DNA of 30,141 nucleotides from a virus, in IMG/VR virus record IMGVR_UViG_3300028189_000044, positions 1-30,141 of that record, one strand, 5' to 3'. Shown piece after piece: positions 3,098-30,141 of this stretch. Under the pieces are notes generated by a model, which worked only from the letters and a program-made list of their open reading frames with translations, was not told the origin of the DNA and ran no database searches. Numbering within the stretch: the stretch's first letter is position 1; every line of letters starts with the position of its first letter. A program made the position numbers and the translations under genes.

Positions 3098-3135
3098 CCC
3101 GGAGAGGGCAACCCGTTAAATTAACCCTCTTCGGG
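3098..3135 (+). repeat. Inverted repeat enclosing the first promoter-like motif
   Basis: CCCGGAGAGGG at 3098-3108 can pair with CCCTCTTCGGG at 3125-3135: eleven pairs with one G-U. The 16-base loop is exactly the first 16 bases of the repeated motif. In RNA this would be a hairpin at the 3' end of the upstream transcript, with no U-tract, so a processing site or 3' stabiliser is more likely than an intrinsic terminator. The other two motif copies do not have an equally strong stem. Confidence 0.6.
3109..3128 (+). promoter_or_regulatory. Candidate phage RNA polymerase promoter, copy 1
   Basis: The 20-mer CAACCCGTTAAATTAACCCT occurs here and, base for base, at 16745-16764; 17 of 20 bases recur at 29759-29778. 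All three lie in gaps without genes and ahead of + strand units; this copy is 32 bases before the SSB gene. A T7-type polymerase is encoded upstream, and such polymerases read conserved promoters of about 20 bases, so promoter identity is the simplest reading. The core is nearly palindromic, so direction is inferred from the downstream genes. Confidence 0.65.
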
Positions 3136-3160: not shown

Positions 3161-3784
3161 ATGATCCTTCACGATTGCGAAATCTGGTATCCGAAATTGA
3201 TGCCAGGACGTCCGAACGCAAAGTTCGACAAGAAGAATCCCACCTGGGAACTCCAGCTGCGTACTACCAGCAAGGAGAAGAAAAAGGAATGGGAAGCACT
3301 GAATCTCAATGTCAAGGCAGTTATCCCTGACGAAGATGGTGCAGACCCGTTTTATCGTGTGAACATCAAACGAAAGACCATCAAAGCCGATGGAACAGCT
3401 TCCAAAGAAGTTGAAGTTGTTGATGGTAACATGGACCCTGTCGACCCTGGCAGCATCGGGAACGGCTCCATCGGAAACATTCGAATCTTCCAATATCCAT
3501 ATGAGAGCGATGACGGTCCAGGTATCGCCTCAATGCTGATGGCAGTCCAGTTGACCACACACATTGTCTACAAGTCGGCCATTGATCCTGATGATCAATT
3601 TGGTGCCACTGAGACAAAAGTTATTACGCCACCGCCGGAGGAAGAAGAGACTCCTGAGACAACTCAGGCAGCGCCTTCAACGCCCTCTACTCCCGCTGCG
3701 CCTGGAACTCCGAGCTTGAACCCTCCAGGGACTCCAAGTACTCCTGAAGCAGGCTCAGAGATCGACGACGAAATCCCTTTCTAG
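3161..3784 (+). CDS. Single-stranded DNA-binding protein with SSB-type acidic tip
   Basis: A 207-residue protein that coats single-stranded DNA during replication and recombination. Residues 1 to about 150 carry the beta-rich, aromatic pattern of phage SSBs in the T7 gp2.5 position (LHDCEIWYPKL, WELQLRT, then F/Y-rich strands). Residues about 155-198 are a linker rich in P, S, T and E with repeated PSTP/PGTPS units. The last residues are EIDDEIPF, nearly the DDDIPF tip of bacterial SSB that recruits partner proteins. It follows the promoter-like site and has a GAGG ribosome element. The N-terminal family assignment rests on context and pattern; the tail is directly visible. Confidence 0.85.
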   Translation: MILHDCEIWYPKLMPGRPNAKFDKKNPTWELQLRTTSKEKKKEWEALNLNVKAVIPDEDGADPFYRVNIKRKTIKADGTASKEVEVVDGNMDPVDPGSIGNGSIGNIRIFQYPYESDDGPGIASMLMAVQLTTHIVYKSAIDPDDQFGATETKVITPPPEEEETPETTQAAPSTPSTPAAPGTPSLNPPGTPSTPEAGSEIDDEIPF

Positions 3785-3799
3785 GGAACAGCCTCGTAC

Positions 3800-3834
3800 T
3801 AATGGGTATGTGATATACGATTGCATACCCATTA
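3800..3834 (+). repeat. 11-bp perfect hairpin between SSB and DUF3310 genes
   Basis: AATGGGTATG at 3801-3810 is fully complementary to CATACCCATT at 3824-3833, extended by one outer T-A pair, with a 13-base loop. No U-run follows, so it is not a standard intrinsic terminator. A second hairpin with the same ATGGGT/ACCCAT shoulder lies at 11276, which suggests a shared role such as RNase processing or mRNA end protection. Confidence 0.6.
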
Positions 3835-3867
3835 TACGCAATTACTAGAGATATGGAGGGTCAATAT

Positions 3868-9342: not shown

Positions 9343-11271
9343 ATGTCCGCAAAACAATTACCGACAGTCTACCAAGAATTCATCGCACTCAGTCGATACG
9401 CCCGTTGGCTACCCGACGAAAAGAGACGTGAAACTTGGTCCGAAACAGCAACTCGTTATATCAGCTTCTTCGATGACAAGTTTGACTTCGACGATGACGA
9501 GTACGACGAGCTACATGCGGCTATCTACAACCTCAAATCAATGCCTTCTATGCGTGCGCTAATGACAGCAGGACCGGCGCTTGACCGCGATAACGTTGCA
9601 GGATTCAACTGTAGCTACCTCGCTATCAACCGTGTACGTGCCTTCGACGAACTGATGTATATCCTGGCCTGTGGCACCGGAGTAGGTTTCTCTTGTGAAC
9701 GCCAGGAAGTGAACCAATTACCTACCATCGCTGACGAAATGGTGCGGAGTTCTTCTGTGCTTGTGGTGGATGACAGTAAAGAAGGTTGGGCCTCATCGTT
9801 CCGTGAAATGGTTTCTCTGCTGTATGCAGGGCAAGTCCCTAAGTGGAATGTCGACGCTGTACGCCCTAAAGGTGCACCTCTGAAAACCTTCGGTGGTCGT
9901 GCAAGTGGCCCTGAGCCTCTGGTGGAACTCTTCAAGTACACCATTATGCTGTTCAAGAACGCTCGTGGACGTAAGCTAACATCTATTGAAGTCCACGGCC
10001 TCTGCTGTAAGATCGCTGAAATCATCGTTGTTGGTGGTGTTCGACGGTCAGCCCTAATTAGCTTGAGCAACCTCAGCGATGAGCGTATGCGTCATGCTAA
10101 GTCAGGTCAATGGTGGAATGAACACCCTGAATACGCCTTGGCCAATAATACAGTGGCCTATGATGAGCGCCCCGGTGTCGATGTATTTATGCGCGAATGG
10201 CTAGCTCTTATTGAGAGCAAGTCAGGAGAGCGTGGCATCTTCAACCGTGAAGCGGCGCAAAGCCAAGTGGCAAAGAATGGTCGTAGAGACCCCTGCTTTG
10301 AGTTCGGTACTAACCCCTGCTCTGAGATTATCCTTCGAGACAGACAGTTCTGTAACCTCTCTGAAGTAGTTGTTCGCGAAGACGATACAATTGATGACCT
10401 TAAAGAGAAGGTTCGATTAGCTACTATCTTTGGAACTCTTCAGTCATCACTCACTAAGTTCAGGTATCTGAGCAAAGAGTGGGCTGAGAACACCAAAGAA
10501 GAAGCACTGTTGGGTGTCTCCCTCACTGGCATTATGGAACACCCTATCTTGAACGGATCTGGATATTTAGATGGCACTGATGACAGACTCGCAGGCATCC
10601 TCGACGAGCTGTGCGATGTTGCTGTGTCGACTAATGCTGAGTGGGCTGATCGTCTTGGTGTCGCCAGATCAACTGCTGTGACCTGTGTGAAGCCTTCTGG
10701 CACTGTTAGCCAACTGGTTAACTCACCATCGGGTATCCATGCTGAATACGCAGAGCACTATATTCGCACTGTGAGGGCCGACGACAAAGATCCTCTATGT
10801 GAATATATGAAGTCTGTAGGCTTCCCCTGGGAAGAAGATGTTACGAAGCCTGGCAGCGTGTCGGTCTTCAGCTTTCCTATGAAGAAACCAAAGGGTTCAA
10901 TCTTCCGAAATGATCGGACTGCACTTCAGCAGCTAGAGCTATGGCTGGTTTATCAACGTCACTGGTGTGAGCATAAACCCTCCATCACAGTGTACGTTCG
11001 GGACGAAGAATGGCTGGCCGTTGGCGCTTGGGTATGGGAGCACTTCGATGAAATCTCTGGAGTGAGCTTCTTACCGTACTCTGATCATACTTATCGTCAA
11101 GCTCCGTACCAGGAGATCTTTGAAGATGAGTACGAAGATCTGATCAAGATGATGCCGAAAAATGTCGATTGGGCAAAACTCGGTGAATTCGAAGACCAAG
11201 ACATGACTGCAGGAGCCGGTACAATGGCTTGTGTAGCTGGTGTATGTGAGATCGTTGATCTTACTAGTTAA
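9343..11271 (+). CDS. Adenosylcobalamin-dependent (class II) ribonucleoside-triphosphate reductase
   Basis: A 642-residue enzyme that makes deoxynucleotides for replication. It looks like the monomeric class II type: an N-terminal redox cysteine in FNCSYLA (C90), the radical-site loop TNPCSEI with C326 and E328, a GVGFSC-type active site entry, and a C-terminal shuttle pair in CVAGVCEI (C630, C635). There is no partner NrdB gene and no glycyl-radical C-terminus in the window, and the length and motifs match Lactobacillus-type RTPR (about 740 residues) with shortened parts. The enzyme needs adenosylcobalamin from the host or medium. It follows the primase-helicase after 14 bases and is followed by a strong hairpin at 11276. 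Confidence 0.93.
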   Translation: MSAKQLPTVYQEFIALSRYARWLPDEKRRETWSETATRYISFFDDKFDFDDDEYDELHAAIYNLKSMPSMRALMTAGPALDRDNVAGFNCSYLAINRVRAFDELMYILACGTGVGFSCERQEVNQLPTIADEMVRSSSVLVVDDSKEGWASSFREMVSLLYAGQVPKWNVDAVRPKGAPLKTFGGRASGPEPLVELFKYTIMLFKNARGRKLTSIEVHGLCCKIAEIIVVGGVRRSALISLSNLSDERMRHAKSGQWWNEHPEYALANNTVAYDERPGVDVFMREWLALIESKSGERGIFNREAAQSQVAKNGRRDPCFEFGTNPCSEIILRDRQFCNLSEVVVREDDTIDDLKEKVRLATIFGTLQSSLTKFRYLSKEWAENTKEEALLGVSLTGIMEHPILNGSGYLDGTDDRLAGILDELCDVAVSTNAEWADRLGVARSTAVTCVKPSGTVSQLVNSPSGIHAEYAEHYIRTVRADDKDPLCEYMKSVGFPWEEDVTKPGSVSVFSFPMKKPKGSIFRNDRTALQQLELWLVYQRHWCEHKPSITVYVRDEEWLAVGAWVWEHFDEISGVSFLPYSDHTYRQAPYQEIFEDEYEDLIKMMPKNVDWAKLGEFEDQDMTAGAGTMACVAGVCEIVDLTS

Positions 11272-11275
11272 ATCG

Positions 11276-11312
11276 TTATGGGTGAGTGATTGTTATGATC
11301 GCTCACCCATAA
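11276..11312 (+). repeat. 15-bp hairpin after the ribonucleotide reductase gene
   Basis: 11276-11290 pairs with 11298-11312 over 15 positions (one G-U), leaving a seven-base loop. The stem begins TTATGGGTGAG and ends CTCACCCATAA. A tract of only four A and no T-run follows, so it is probably not an intrinsic terminator on the + strand; RNA processing or 3'-end protection fits better. The ATGGGT shoulder is shared with the hairpin at 3800. Confidence 0.65.
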
Positions 11313-11340
11313 AACTGAAACAATCAGGAGTACATTGAAA

Positions 11341-16574: not shown

Positions 16575-16744
16575 CTAAGGCTGTTGCTCTTTTAATGCAG
16601 CCATAGAGTGGGCCGGAGAGACCACCTCGGACCCCTGACGACATTCCCCCAAATGTCGCCCCGAATGGCCTCTCCGTACCACGCTGACGAACCTGGCGAA
16701 GCTCTCGCCTCAAAACTGGAGGAAGTATGTCACCCTGATTCTGC
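16575..16744 (+). other. Non-coding, structured stretch before promoter copy 2
   Basis: No gene is supported here. The strongest fold is a rod at 16615-16675: GGAGAG (16615) with CTCTCC (16670), extended across one mismatch by CC/GG, then TCGG/CCGA, then a perfect seven-pair tip CGACATT (16639) with AATGTCG (16652). A second small hairpin is GGCGA/TCGCC at 16695-16709. Both hairpins are close to a CTGACGA sequence. The lack of U-tracts argues against simple intrinsic terminators. Confidence 0.45.
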
Positions 16745-16764
16745 CAACCCGTTAAATTAACCCT
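16745..16764 (+). promoter_or_regulatory. Candidate phage RNA polymerase promoter, copy 2
   Basis: Identical in all 20 bases to the site at 3109. It lies 73 bases before the gene at 16838, in a gap of more than 260 bases without coding sequence. With the terminator at 17462 it brackets a single gene, so it would give a short abundant message. Confidence 0.65.
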
Positions 16765-16837
16765 ATTTGAATCTCAAGACCAAACAGGGCATCAAGCTTG
16801 AAAAATAACTTCATATCCTTATAAGGGAAATACTACT

Positions 16838-17437
16838 ATGACCGACGAACTCAAACAAGTATACGCTGCTCCAGACGGAACCACTTTTGATACCAAAGCC
16901 GAAGCTCAGGATTACCTGCGCGGCCCGAAGATCAAAGAAGCTCTCATGACTGTCACCGACAACAATGAAGACCTGTCTGACTGGCTCGTTGCTAACCGGA
17001 ATGTCGTAGCCGGTGCCTTTGAAAGCGGCTTTATCCGCCGTATCACAAAGTCCGACCACAAGAAAATTGACGCCGCCTTCGCAGCTATGACTGCAAGTGG
17101 TGACAAAGCCTATGCATTCCTGGTCGAAAATCAGGAAAGCCTTGAACTGAAGTACAAGACAGTCAAGCGCATGGACGAAGACGAAAAGATGGCTGCCGCT
17201 CGTGTTGCCATTGCCGACGCTACTGATGACAACAACGAAGAACTGGCCAATTGGGTCGTTGAAAATCGTGAAGCTGTCATCGAAGCTTACAACGCCGGTA
17301 AAGTCAAGCGTACTGTTTCGCCGAGGGCTACTGAAGCCCTGGCTGCGTACCGTGAAAAGATGGCCAAAGAAAAGGCCGCTGCTGCCGGTGGTGAAGCTGC
17401 ACCCGAAGCATCTGCTGAAGCTACCGCTGCCGAGTAA
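16838..17437 (+). CDS. Acidic, alanine-rich protein with three internal repeats
   Basis: A 199-residue protein of unknown function. Three related helical units can be aligned: DLSDWLVANRNVVAGAFESG (from residue 45), KAYAFLVENQESLELKY (from 90) and ELANWVVENREAVIEAYNAG (from 134), each followed by basic residues such as FIRRI, TVKR and KVKR. The first and third units are both preceded by DNNE. The C-terminal 30 residues are an A/E/P-rich low-complexity tail. The gene stands alone between a promoter-like site and a strong terminator and has an AAGGGA ribosome site, which suggests high expression. Helical repeats with conserved basic ends could bind nucleic acid or form a scaffold, but this is inference. 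Confidence 0.8.
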   Translation: MTDELKQVYAAPDGTTFDTKAEAQDYLRGPKIKEALMTVTDNNEDLSDWLVANRNVVAGAFESGFIRRITKSDHKKIDAAFAAMTASGDKAYAFLVENQESLELKYKTVKRMDEDEKMAAARVAIADATDDNNEELANWVVENREAVIEAYNAGKVKRTVSPRATEALAAYREKMAKEKAAAAGGEAAPEASAEATAAE

Positions 17438-17461
17438 CCCACAAGGGTTATTCTGATATCG

Positions 17462-17501
17462 ATTCCCCCGAGGTTCCATTAGGAGCTTTGGGGGAATTTT
17501 T
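17462..17501 (+). terminator. Strong intrinsic terminator, 16-bp stem
   Basis: ATTCCCCCGAGGTTCC at 17462-17477 pairs throughout with GGAGCTTTGGGGGAAT at 17482-17497 (three G-U pairs), closing on an ATTA loop, and T residues follow at 17498-17501. It directly follows the repeat-protein gene and would end the transcript starting at the 16745 site. Confidence 0.9.
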
Positions 17502-17521
17502 CGAAAAATTCAAGGGAGACG

Positions 17522-17899: not shown

Positions 17900-18253
17900 T
17901 TGTCAAATAAAATCTGGCACAAAGGTGTCAACTGCCATATCGTAGAATTCTCACAGATCTTTGAAGCTTCAAGCATCTTCAAGAATGTCCGAGCACGCGG
18001 CGATATCATTGTGTTCAATTCAGAGACACGGCAACTCGATATTGCACAGTCTAGGGGCACTATCACCTATACTGACAGTCGGACAGATCATGTCATGCAG
18101 CTTCCGAATGATGTTGTGGAGGCTCAAAAGATGTTGTCCGACGGCGGCTTCAATAAAGGCGTAATCGCCTGTGACCAAGCCGAATTCAGCACGTATTATA
18201 CCGGTGCTATCACGAAGTTCATGCGTCAGCTTTGGGCACGTGCTAACCGGTAA
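17900..18253 (+). CDS. Hypothetical protein, 117 residues (TTG start)
   Basis: The reading frame opens with TTG at 17900, nine bases after AAGGA; no better ATG is nearby. The product is soluble and mixed alpha/beta (GVNCHIVEFSQIFEASSIFKNV, GDIIVFNSETRQLDIA). I do not recognise a family and see no catalytic motif. The gene is followed by the structured non-coding stretch starting at about 18260. Confidence 0.6.
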   Translation: MSNKIWHKGVNCHIVEFSQIFEASSIFKNVRARGDIIVFNSETRQLDIAQSRGTITYTDSRTDHVMQLPNDVVEAQKMLSDGGFNKGVIACDQAEFSTYYTGAITKFMRQLWARANR

Positions 18254-18567
18254 GTAACCCCGAAGCGGTCATAGATCGCATAGGGTGGGATCGCAGAAGC
18301 CTCCGAGGGACGCCTCCCTTGACCCTTGTGTAGTGCTTCTGCCTTCCCTGTAATTGGTACGGCTCCTGAATCCGCTCGTAAGGCGGAAGGTGACTGGGCC
18401 GCTAATGGTTCCACCCTAAGGCAGTACCATACGCACCGTAGATGCTGCGTCATCTATCATATGCAGATGAGAAGGTCTTCCCGGAAGGGCGCCCAACTGG
18501 TGCGGGGTTAAGGGGAGAGTGATCAAGTAGGTTACTCTCCCTATTCTCCTTAATAGAAAGAATTCAA
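18254..18567 (+). ncRNA. Highly structured non-coding region, candidate novel RNA
   Basis: About 315 bases between genes with a coherent nested fold. A ten-pair long-range helix (18281-18290 with 18409-18418) encloses two arms: an eight-pair perfect helix GCAGAAGC/GCTTCTGC (18293-18300 with 18335-18342) that holds an AGGGA/TCCCT hairpin, and CGGCTC/GGGCCG (18360-18365 with 18396-18401) that holds a TCCGC/GCGGA hairpin. A 3' domain has CGCACC/GGTGCG (18432 and 18499) around TAGATG/CATCTA (18439 and 18451). A ten-pair hairpin at 18513-18541 closes the region just before the gene at 18568. I see no match to tRNA, tmRNA, RNase P RNA or group I intron core motifs. It could be a free RNA or an mRNA leader. 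Confidence 0.55.
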
Positions 18568-19002
18568 ATGTACGGAATACGCGTTCAAAGAACACGAAAC
18601 AGTGTCACTGATTGGGAATTCTTGATATCAGTGACAACCGGTGTTGCGATGTGGCCCTTGAGGTCTCAGGCAGTGCTATATGCCAAGTCCATCTATGACG
18701 GTACTGCTGTCATGTATGATGTGGTGGAAATAACTGATCCACAAATTTACTTCGGGGTTGAGCCTCGTAGCACTGTCGAAGAAGATTTCAGAGACCTGGA
18801 AGAGGTTCGCTTCAGGTTAGAAGAAACAAGGTGCACCCATCGTAAGACTGATGGTGAATACGAGATCACTGACTTCGGTCTGGATGAAGAGAGCCTTGAA
18901 AAGGTTGTCGTCTACCGAAGTACGCTTGTCGACACCGTACCCCATGTCTGGGTACGTCCTCTCAAAAGCTTTATGGACGGAAGGTTCAAATTACATGGCT
19001 GA
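18568..19002 (+). CDS. Hypothetical protein, 144 residues
   Basis: A soluble protein whose N-terminal part looks like a small beta-sheet (YGIRVQRTRN, DWEFLISVTTGVAMWPLRSQAVLYAKSIY) and whose middle is an acidic helix (EEDFRDLEEVRFRLEET). No family is recognised. The ribosome site is weak (AGAAAG), and the ATG lies 26 bases after the hairpin at 18513-18541, so translation could depend on the upstream RNA structure. It overlaps the next gene by eight bases. Confidence 0.65.
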   Translation: MYGIRVQRTRNSVTDWEFLISVTTGVAMWPLRSQAVLYAKSIYDGTAVMYDVVEITDPQIYFGVEPRSTVEEDFRDLEEVRFRLEETRCTHRKTDGEYEITDFGLDEESLEKVVVYRSTLVDTVPHVWVRPLKSFMDGRFKLHG

Positions 19003-25310: not shown

Positions 25311-25939
25311 CTTAACCCCCTCGTGGAAACACAGGTTTGAGGTGGTACCTGTTACTATCTCTATAAGTGCCTAACAATCCATTTCCGAAAGGGATTGGAC
25401 GGTGTGGAACGGAAAGGCAGCAACGGGATTGGAATGGAGAGCAGTGTGATGTTACGGATCGGTTCGTATTGTATTGGCAGTAACGGTATTGGCAAGGGAG
25501 GGTAACGTAATGAAAGGGCTAGGCGAGTTATGGTGGGTAGTGGCAGTAATGGTATTGGATTGTATTGCAATGTTAGGGCTTGTTTAGGCCTGGTGCGGCA
25601 GTAACGGAAGTGGTAAAGGAGAGTTTGGTAATGTTTCGGCGTGGCGAGTCGCGCAAATGGAATGGCAGTAATGGAATTGGACGGGAGGGTAGTGTAGCGT
25701 ATAGTAGGGTTAGGGCTAGGTTTGTATCGGTTAGGCAGTAATGGCAAGGGAATGGATTGTATCGTCGAGGTGCGTCCTGGTTTGTAGCGTTGAGGCAGTA
25801 ATGGAAATGGAAGGTATTGTAGTGCAACGTCTGGGTTCGGTGCGTACTGGTGCGTATCGGCAGGCTTGGTTTAAGAACTGTTATCGTGAGCAGGCAGTAT
25901 AAAGACAACGCTCGCATAAAAACTGAAGGAACTAAGAAA
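25311..25939 (+). repeat. G-skewed iteron-like repeat region, candidate replication origin
   Basis: A 630-base gap without a credible gene. The core GGCAGTAAYGG (one copy GGCAGCAACGG) starts at 25416, 25476, 25542, 25597, 25664, 25734 and 25794; partial copies follow at 25859 and 25893. Intervals between full copies are 55-70 bases. Each full copy is followed by related purine text (G-x-A-x-T-GG...). The + strand is strongly biased: 25501-25560 has 24 G and 4 C. A GAAA-capped hairpin with seven pairs and one mismatch (CCATTTCC/GGGATTGG) lies at about 25379-25398. Regular short repeats in a gene-free, skewed tract fit an initiator-binding or R-loop origin. This is inferred, not proven. Confidence 0.75.
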
Positions 25940-29622: not shown

Positions 29623-29625
29623 AAG

Positions 29626-29690
29626 ATAACCTCAGAACAACTCTTATGCCTTCGGGTGTAGGGGTTGTTCTGGGGTTATATATTTTTTTT
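29626..29690 (+). terminator. Very strong intrinsic terminator, UUCG-capped
   Basis: A continuous stem of 23 or more pairs from about 29628 to 29677 (several G-U pairs, AT extensions on the outside) closes on a TTCG tetraloop at 29651-29654 and is followed by eight T residues at 29683-29690. It ends the long + strand block of small genes and insulates the promoter-like site 70 bases further on. Confidence 0.95.
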
Positions 29691-29758
29691 GATTTTCCTC
29701 TCCTTATACAGCGATGAAGAACCTCTAAAATAAGAGTAATGGGAATATTTCTTTACTC

Positions 29759-29778
29759 TAACTCGTTAAATTAACCCA
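29759..29778 (+). promoter_or_regulatory. Candidate phage RNA polymerase promoter, copy 3
   Basis: TAACTCGTTAAATTAACCCA matches the 20-mer at 3109 and 16745 in 17 positions, with the core CGTTAAATTAACCC unchanged. It follows the terminator at 29626 and opens a leader that runs out of the window, so it probably drives the next gene block. Confidence 0.6.
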
Positions 29779-30141
29779 AGAGGCTTCGAGAGAAGACGTC
29801 GAAGGGGTTCCTCTTTTAATGTCCTCCTGAACGCTTTAGTAGTTGGAATTGAGAAGAGTAAACCTTAAAGCTTGGCTGTGCATCGTTGAGCACTAGCGAA
29901 CGCGGTCTCTTTCTTATAACCTCCGCTTACGCGAGACACCATATCAGTTATTGTTAAGAGCAATTTCATCGTCGTGTAAGGAAAGAGGATCTTTCTAAAG
30001 AGAGCAGCTACTACGACTGTTCATACTCAGGCTCACGCCAAATGATATCTAAAGAGTCCTTCTTAAGAGAACTTTCTTCTTGTGTATTGAGAAAGTTCTC
30101 TTAAATGAGACTCTCTGAAGAGTCCTTTAAATAGCTGAGAT
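29779..30141 (+). other. Long structured leader without genes
   Basis: About 360 bases hold no gene I can support on either strand. Several hairpins are seen: AAGAGG-CTTCGA with TCGAAG...CCTCTT at 29778-29815, GTGC/GCAC at about 29878-29893, GAAAGA/TCTTTC at about 29981-29995, a perfect 15-pair stem (30063-30077 with 30090-30104), and GACTCT/AGAGTC at 30109-30124. The word AAGAGTCCTT occurs at 30052 and again at 30118, so GACTCT at 30109 can pair with either copy. This would be an unusually long and folded 5' leader for a phage message, or a separate RNA. Confidence 0.5.

Follow-up and report, generated by a model that had tools for sequence, protein, structure and literature searches.

The gap at positions 18254 to 18567 of a 30,141-base viral record (the window, meaning the whole stretch of DNA analyzed) is tentatively best explained as an intercistronic spacer that has a 3′ hairpin acting in processing or as a decay barrier, preceded by an orphan folded domain acting in cis. 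This explanation draws on helices of at least 12 pairs, the folding z scores of the sense versus the antisense strand, a GC peak at the closing helix, noncoding codon usage, and three intergenic GUGAU hairpins that lack a U-tract and carry compensatory changes. It is weakened by a folding energy at background level, by the lack of a homologue in about 100 records, by a hairpin family of three copies, and by a pentamer test made post hoc.

The window encodes a single-subunit RNA polymerase, a family A DNA polymerase, a primase-helicase, a B12-type ribonucleotide reductase, and a DNA ligase. By RNA polymerase, the nearest named phages were DSS3_PM1 and DSS3_VP1 (34% identity; DSS3_VP1 is classified in the Naomviridae), and, of the five closest environmental relatives found with this protein, four were 55 to 69% identical over the best segment. 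RNA polymerase genes of relatives contained inserts of ~700 to 800 nt (L035, 17254 to 18057; L034, 1893 to 2603; L038, 8677 to 9438 and 7569 to 8267), which hold a homing-endonuclease-like open reading frame and resemble group I introns, none being reported at the Rfam gathering threshold; the window's own RNA polymerase gene had no insert.

The gap lies between a gene of 117 amino acids with no relative found (17900 to 18253, plus strand) and one of 144 amino acids with DUF1653 at its C terminus (18568 to 19002, plus strand). The phage had been said to leave almost no gaps, which proved wrong, as other noncoding gaps measure 263, 614, 152, 147, and 519 nt. Codon usage of the gap was noncoding, with one frame scoring intermediate (0.04); no Pfam family was found in its open reading frames, and a weak thymidylate synthase match (E value, 2) was taken as chance. 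Elsewhere, the 614-nt gap (25311 to 25924) is G-rich and noncoding, with degenerate repeats of approximately GGCAGTAATGGNATTGG every 60 to 120 nt, and is possibly an origin or a binding array.

The predicted fold (plus strand throughout) consists of a multi-branched domain (18255 to 18510) and the 3′ hairpin. The domain is treated as one because a closing helix (18255 to 18262/18503 to 18510, UAACCCCG/CGGGGUUA; pair probability, 0.84) joins its ends; this helix and a 5′ hairpin, GCGGUC-AUA-GAUCGC (18265 to 18279; pair probability, 0.99), were both absent from the preliminary description. A long-range helix (18281 to 18292/18407 to 18418 in the minimum-energy fold; mean pair probability, 0.98), given there as ten pairs, is present but really 12 to 13 pairs long (18281 to 18293/18406 to 18418). 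It encloses the two arms proposed earlier: arm 1 (18293 to 18342), pairing 18293 to 18300 with 18335 to 18342 (GCAGAAGC/GCUUCUGC), had a pair probability of 1.0, and the inner hairpin of arm 2, UCCGCU-CGUAA-GGCGGA (18371 to 18387; stem, 18371 to 18376/18382 to 18387), had one of 0.92, but the outer pairs of arm 2 were weak (0.2 to 0.4). Two further hairpins are predicted (18421 to 18448 and 18450 to 18470). The former (stem, 18421 to 18426/18443 to 18448; pair probability, 0.97) and the 3′ hairpin (13 pairs, 18512 to 18524/18530 to 18542; 0.99) were recovered as first described. Outside the minimum-energy fold, part of arm 1 (18315 to 18326) can pair alternatively with 18504 to 18515, and segment 18504 to 18517 has four competing pairing partners.

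Folding energy of the region gave a z score of −4.3 (none of 100 shuffles as stable), and its reverse strand gave −2.3. Without the 3′ hairpin, z was −2.8 (1 of 200 shuffles as stable); subregion 18279 to 18420 reached −3.45, and 18419 to 18511 had no excess stability (z, +0.5). Across 258-nt stretches of the same phage, the background z score (from just 16 shuffles per stretch) had a mean of −1.0 and a standard deviation of 1.6, with 14 of 232 (6%), coding ones among them, at −3.5 or below. Because the multi-branched domain falls within this background, energy alone is weak evidence for it. The region contains three helices of 12 pairs or more, a count that no shuffle (of 300) and no genome stretch (of 95) matched; one of the three is the alternative arm 1 pairing, which is not in the minimum-energy fold. 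Among 258-nt stretches, the domain is also the GC maximum of the window, and the peak coincides with the closing helix. The long-helix count and the GC maximum are stronger tests than folding energy. By itself, the energy is only moderately unusual. The spacer domain in front of the 3′ hairpin is probably a real RNA fold.

No Rfam 15 family scored above its gathering threshold, in agreement with the first impression that the RNA belongs to no known family; the best match was to an unrelated HCV element (E value, 4.4). ARAGORN found no tRNA or tmRNA in the region, the GOLLD and ROOL covariance models did not match it, and there was no Rfam intron match, at a gathering threshold that likewise failed to report the intron-like inserts of the relatives. 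Searches with blastn against phages and plasmids returned just short, chance-level matches. No homologue of the fold was detected in about 100 related viral records by blastn or by a covariance model whose input was a single sequence supplied twice and which would miss distant homologues, such that not found does not mean absent; the DNA polymerase relatives from IMG/VR were the best 80 of at least 568. Homologues of the gene at 16838 to 17437 were located at 21 loci, and the fold was not found in the examined flanks of any. Gaps 16575 to 16837 and 29623 to 30141 held no second copy, no relative was found in which the flanking genes are joined without a gap, and two scans of viral contigs with 16- to 17-mers hit unrelated sequence only. 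Recurrent short matches in relatives at 18455 to 18472 were likewise unrelated on side-by-side comparison. A 29-nt match to the tRNA-cluster gap of a Stenotrophomonas phage falls in an unannotated HNH endonuclease gene of that phage, but an HNH relic is unlikely, as SYADEKVFPE alone matched in the window and no other HNH motif was seen. In Stenotrophomonas phage Yut2, an unannotated HNH endonuclease gene lies within the tRNA cluster (L041, 1333 to 1680). By these sequence comparisons, the large fold is an orphan without known relative.

The 3′ hairpin (18510 to 18544, plus strand) is the third of an intercistronic set. In a scan for the strongest hairpins of the window, 6 of the top 12 were intergenic: arm 1, two whose stems end in or are followed by T-runs (17451 to 17505 and 29626 to 29679), and three without (3795 to 3838, 11265 to 11317, and 18504 to 18549). 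GTGAT tops the 5′ arm in all three of the latter, whose aligned forms are at 3799 to 3835, 11275 to 11313, and 18510 to 18544, all on the plus strand. This pentamer ranked first of 1,024 (3 occurrences versus a mean of 0.06), with no other found three times in that position, in a test made after sight of the hairpins and on three sequences only. In the alignment of the hairpins, 95.5% of pairs were kept and four pairs had changed on both sides, a result equaled by 6 of 500 shuffles. The agreement of the three hairpins in position, missing T-run, apex, and compensatory change is nevertheless strong.

T7-like phages have RNase III processing sites, which are stable hairpins between genes. The present set is similar by analogy, as its hairpins lack a U-tract and are scattered among the genes of a phage that encodes a single-subunit RNA polymerase, and a stable intercistronic hairpin repeated between genes, as at T7-type sites, was found here; the 250-nt multi-branched domain, in contrast, has no counterpart among them. 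An intrinsic terminator would also be a GC-rich hairpin between two genes, but 18510 to 18544 has no U-run after 18542 (AUUCUCCUUA; ATTCTCCTTA), unlike 17451 to 17505 and 29626 to 29679 of the same phage, although a loose pattern scan did count it among terminator-like hairpins. Given its position, shape, and the common GUGAU apex, the 3′ hairpin is most likely, by this analogy, a dispersed intercistronic element of a candidate mRNA-processing or 3′-end-protecting kind. No such domain lies upstream of the other two GUGAU hairpins, indicating that the hairpin does not need it. In relatives G001, G002, and G004, sequence-unrelated hairpins stand behind the homologue of the gene at 3161 to 3784, which fits with a fast-evolving intercistronic signal. 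A hairpin match in Klebsiella phage KPN8 (E value, 0.07) was rejected, being a single copy in that genome. Stem-loop elements scattered between phage genes are also a feature of the mobile regulatory cassettes that Arbiol et al. (2010) reportedly described in T4-type phages, but the three hairpins here have no attached promoter. In relative L039 (11740 to 11860, minus strand), a long-range helix around smaller hairpins is followed by a T run, resembling a compound terminator.

A candidate promoter motif, AACCCGTTRAATTAACCCT, has three sites in the window (3112 to 3128, 16748 to 16764, and 29762 to 29778), and CGTTAAATTAACCC occurs three times, always in gaps and on the plus strand. With up to four mismatches to ACCCGTTAAATTAACCCT, and in most cases one, the motif precedes the homologue of the gene at 16838 to 17437 in 21 of 21 viral loci (L138 to L158), several of which are near-copies of one another. 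A matrix from 21 distinct sites scored the three window sites, which belonged to its training set, at 28 to 37 bits and all else at 2.3 bits or less. From its position and conservation, we infer that the motif is likely a promoter of the phage single-subunit RNA polymerase. The 5′ end of the gap has no candidate promoter (best site there, −4.8 bits, rank 46 in the window), which makes read-through the most likely source of transcription across the region. The nearest upstream candidate is at 16746 to 16764 (plus strand, AACCCGTTAAATTAACCCT; motif matrix), and a terminator-like hairpin with a T5 run (17451 to 17505, plus strand) lies between it and the region. The gene at 16838 to 17437, whose function is not known, has the conserved motif in front and this hairpin behind, an arrangement that would suit expression as one strong unit; in relative L036, a terminator-like hairpin also stands behind its homologue. 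Downstream of the candidate promoter at 29762, no open reading frame occurs for at least 360 nt, up to the contig end (30141); this stretch contains strong hairpins and is possibly a leader or a noncoding transcript.

A serious, if rather unlikely, rival is that the GC-rich stretch represents a recent insert, foreign or decayed, without RNA function, its folding due to base composition plus chance, and that only the 3′ hairpin works. The GC maximum, the missing relatives, an energy only moderately beyond background, the ordinary stability of 18419 to 18511, and the frame of intermediate coding score would all suit an insert; the long-helix count, however, exceeds that of shuffles of the same composition, no open reading frame has a protein family, and the GC peak falls on the closing helix. 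Quite unlikely is a phage RNA that acts in trans after processing has freed it as a compact fold closed by 18255 to 18262/18503 to 18510. The predicted fold has such a closed multi-branched architecture, and phages are known to encode structured RNAs, among them the large, ornate, multi-branched, untranslated GOLLD and ROOL (PMC12286853). Many GOLLD RNAs exceed 800 nt (PMC12286853), whereas the region here is far smaller and has no Rfam match, and the window has no tRNA genes. The earlier suggestion of a free RNA found no support, given that the 5′ end has no phage-type promoter motif of its own and the 3′ hairpin no U-tract as in an intrinsic terminator tail, and no relative was found in Rfam or related phages.

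We are slightly more doubtful of an undescribed compact phage RNA of ~257 nt with a terminal helix, which would be released by the GUGAU hairpin and possibly locked by pairing of the arm 1 loop with 18504 to 18515. Least probable is a leader switch of the DUF1653 gene, in which 18504 to 18517 would exchange among the closing helix, arm 1 (18315 to 18326), the 3′ hairpin, and segment 18544 to 18554, which adjoins the start codon. Mutually exclusive helices of 8, 12, 13, and 11 pairs do use this segment, and the downstream gene has a weak ribosome site, but overlapping complementarity is cheap in a GGGG-rich segment, there is no conservation, and the same hairpin type occurs elsewhere without the domain.

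In the preferred reading of a cis-acting spacer, the region would be an untranslated intercistronic stretch of phage mRNA and no independent gene. Transcription would enter from upstream by read-through, with the nearest candidate promoter at 16746 to 16764 and the terminator-like hairpin in between. The 3′ hairpin would serve mRNA processing or 3′-end protection, as between genes of T7-like phages, and the GC-rich domain would fold compactly before it, giving the upstream message a stable 3′ end; most likely, the domain would also insulate the downstream DUF1653 gene in cis.

The large fold would gain importance only with the discovery of homologues or a transcript, and the hairpin set and promoter motif are more useful results than the region itself. 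If real, the hairpin set would define an intercistronic signal at the RNA level in a little-studied phage group, whose RNA polymerase makes it a distant relative of DSS3_VP1; combined with the promoter motif, it would provide a first testable transcription map for this group.
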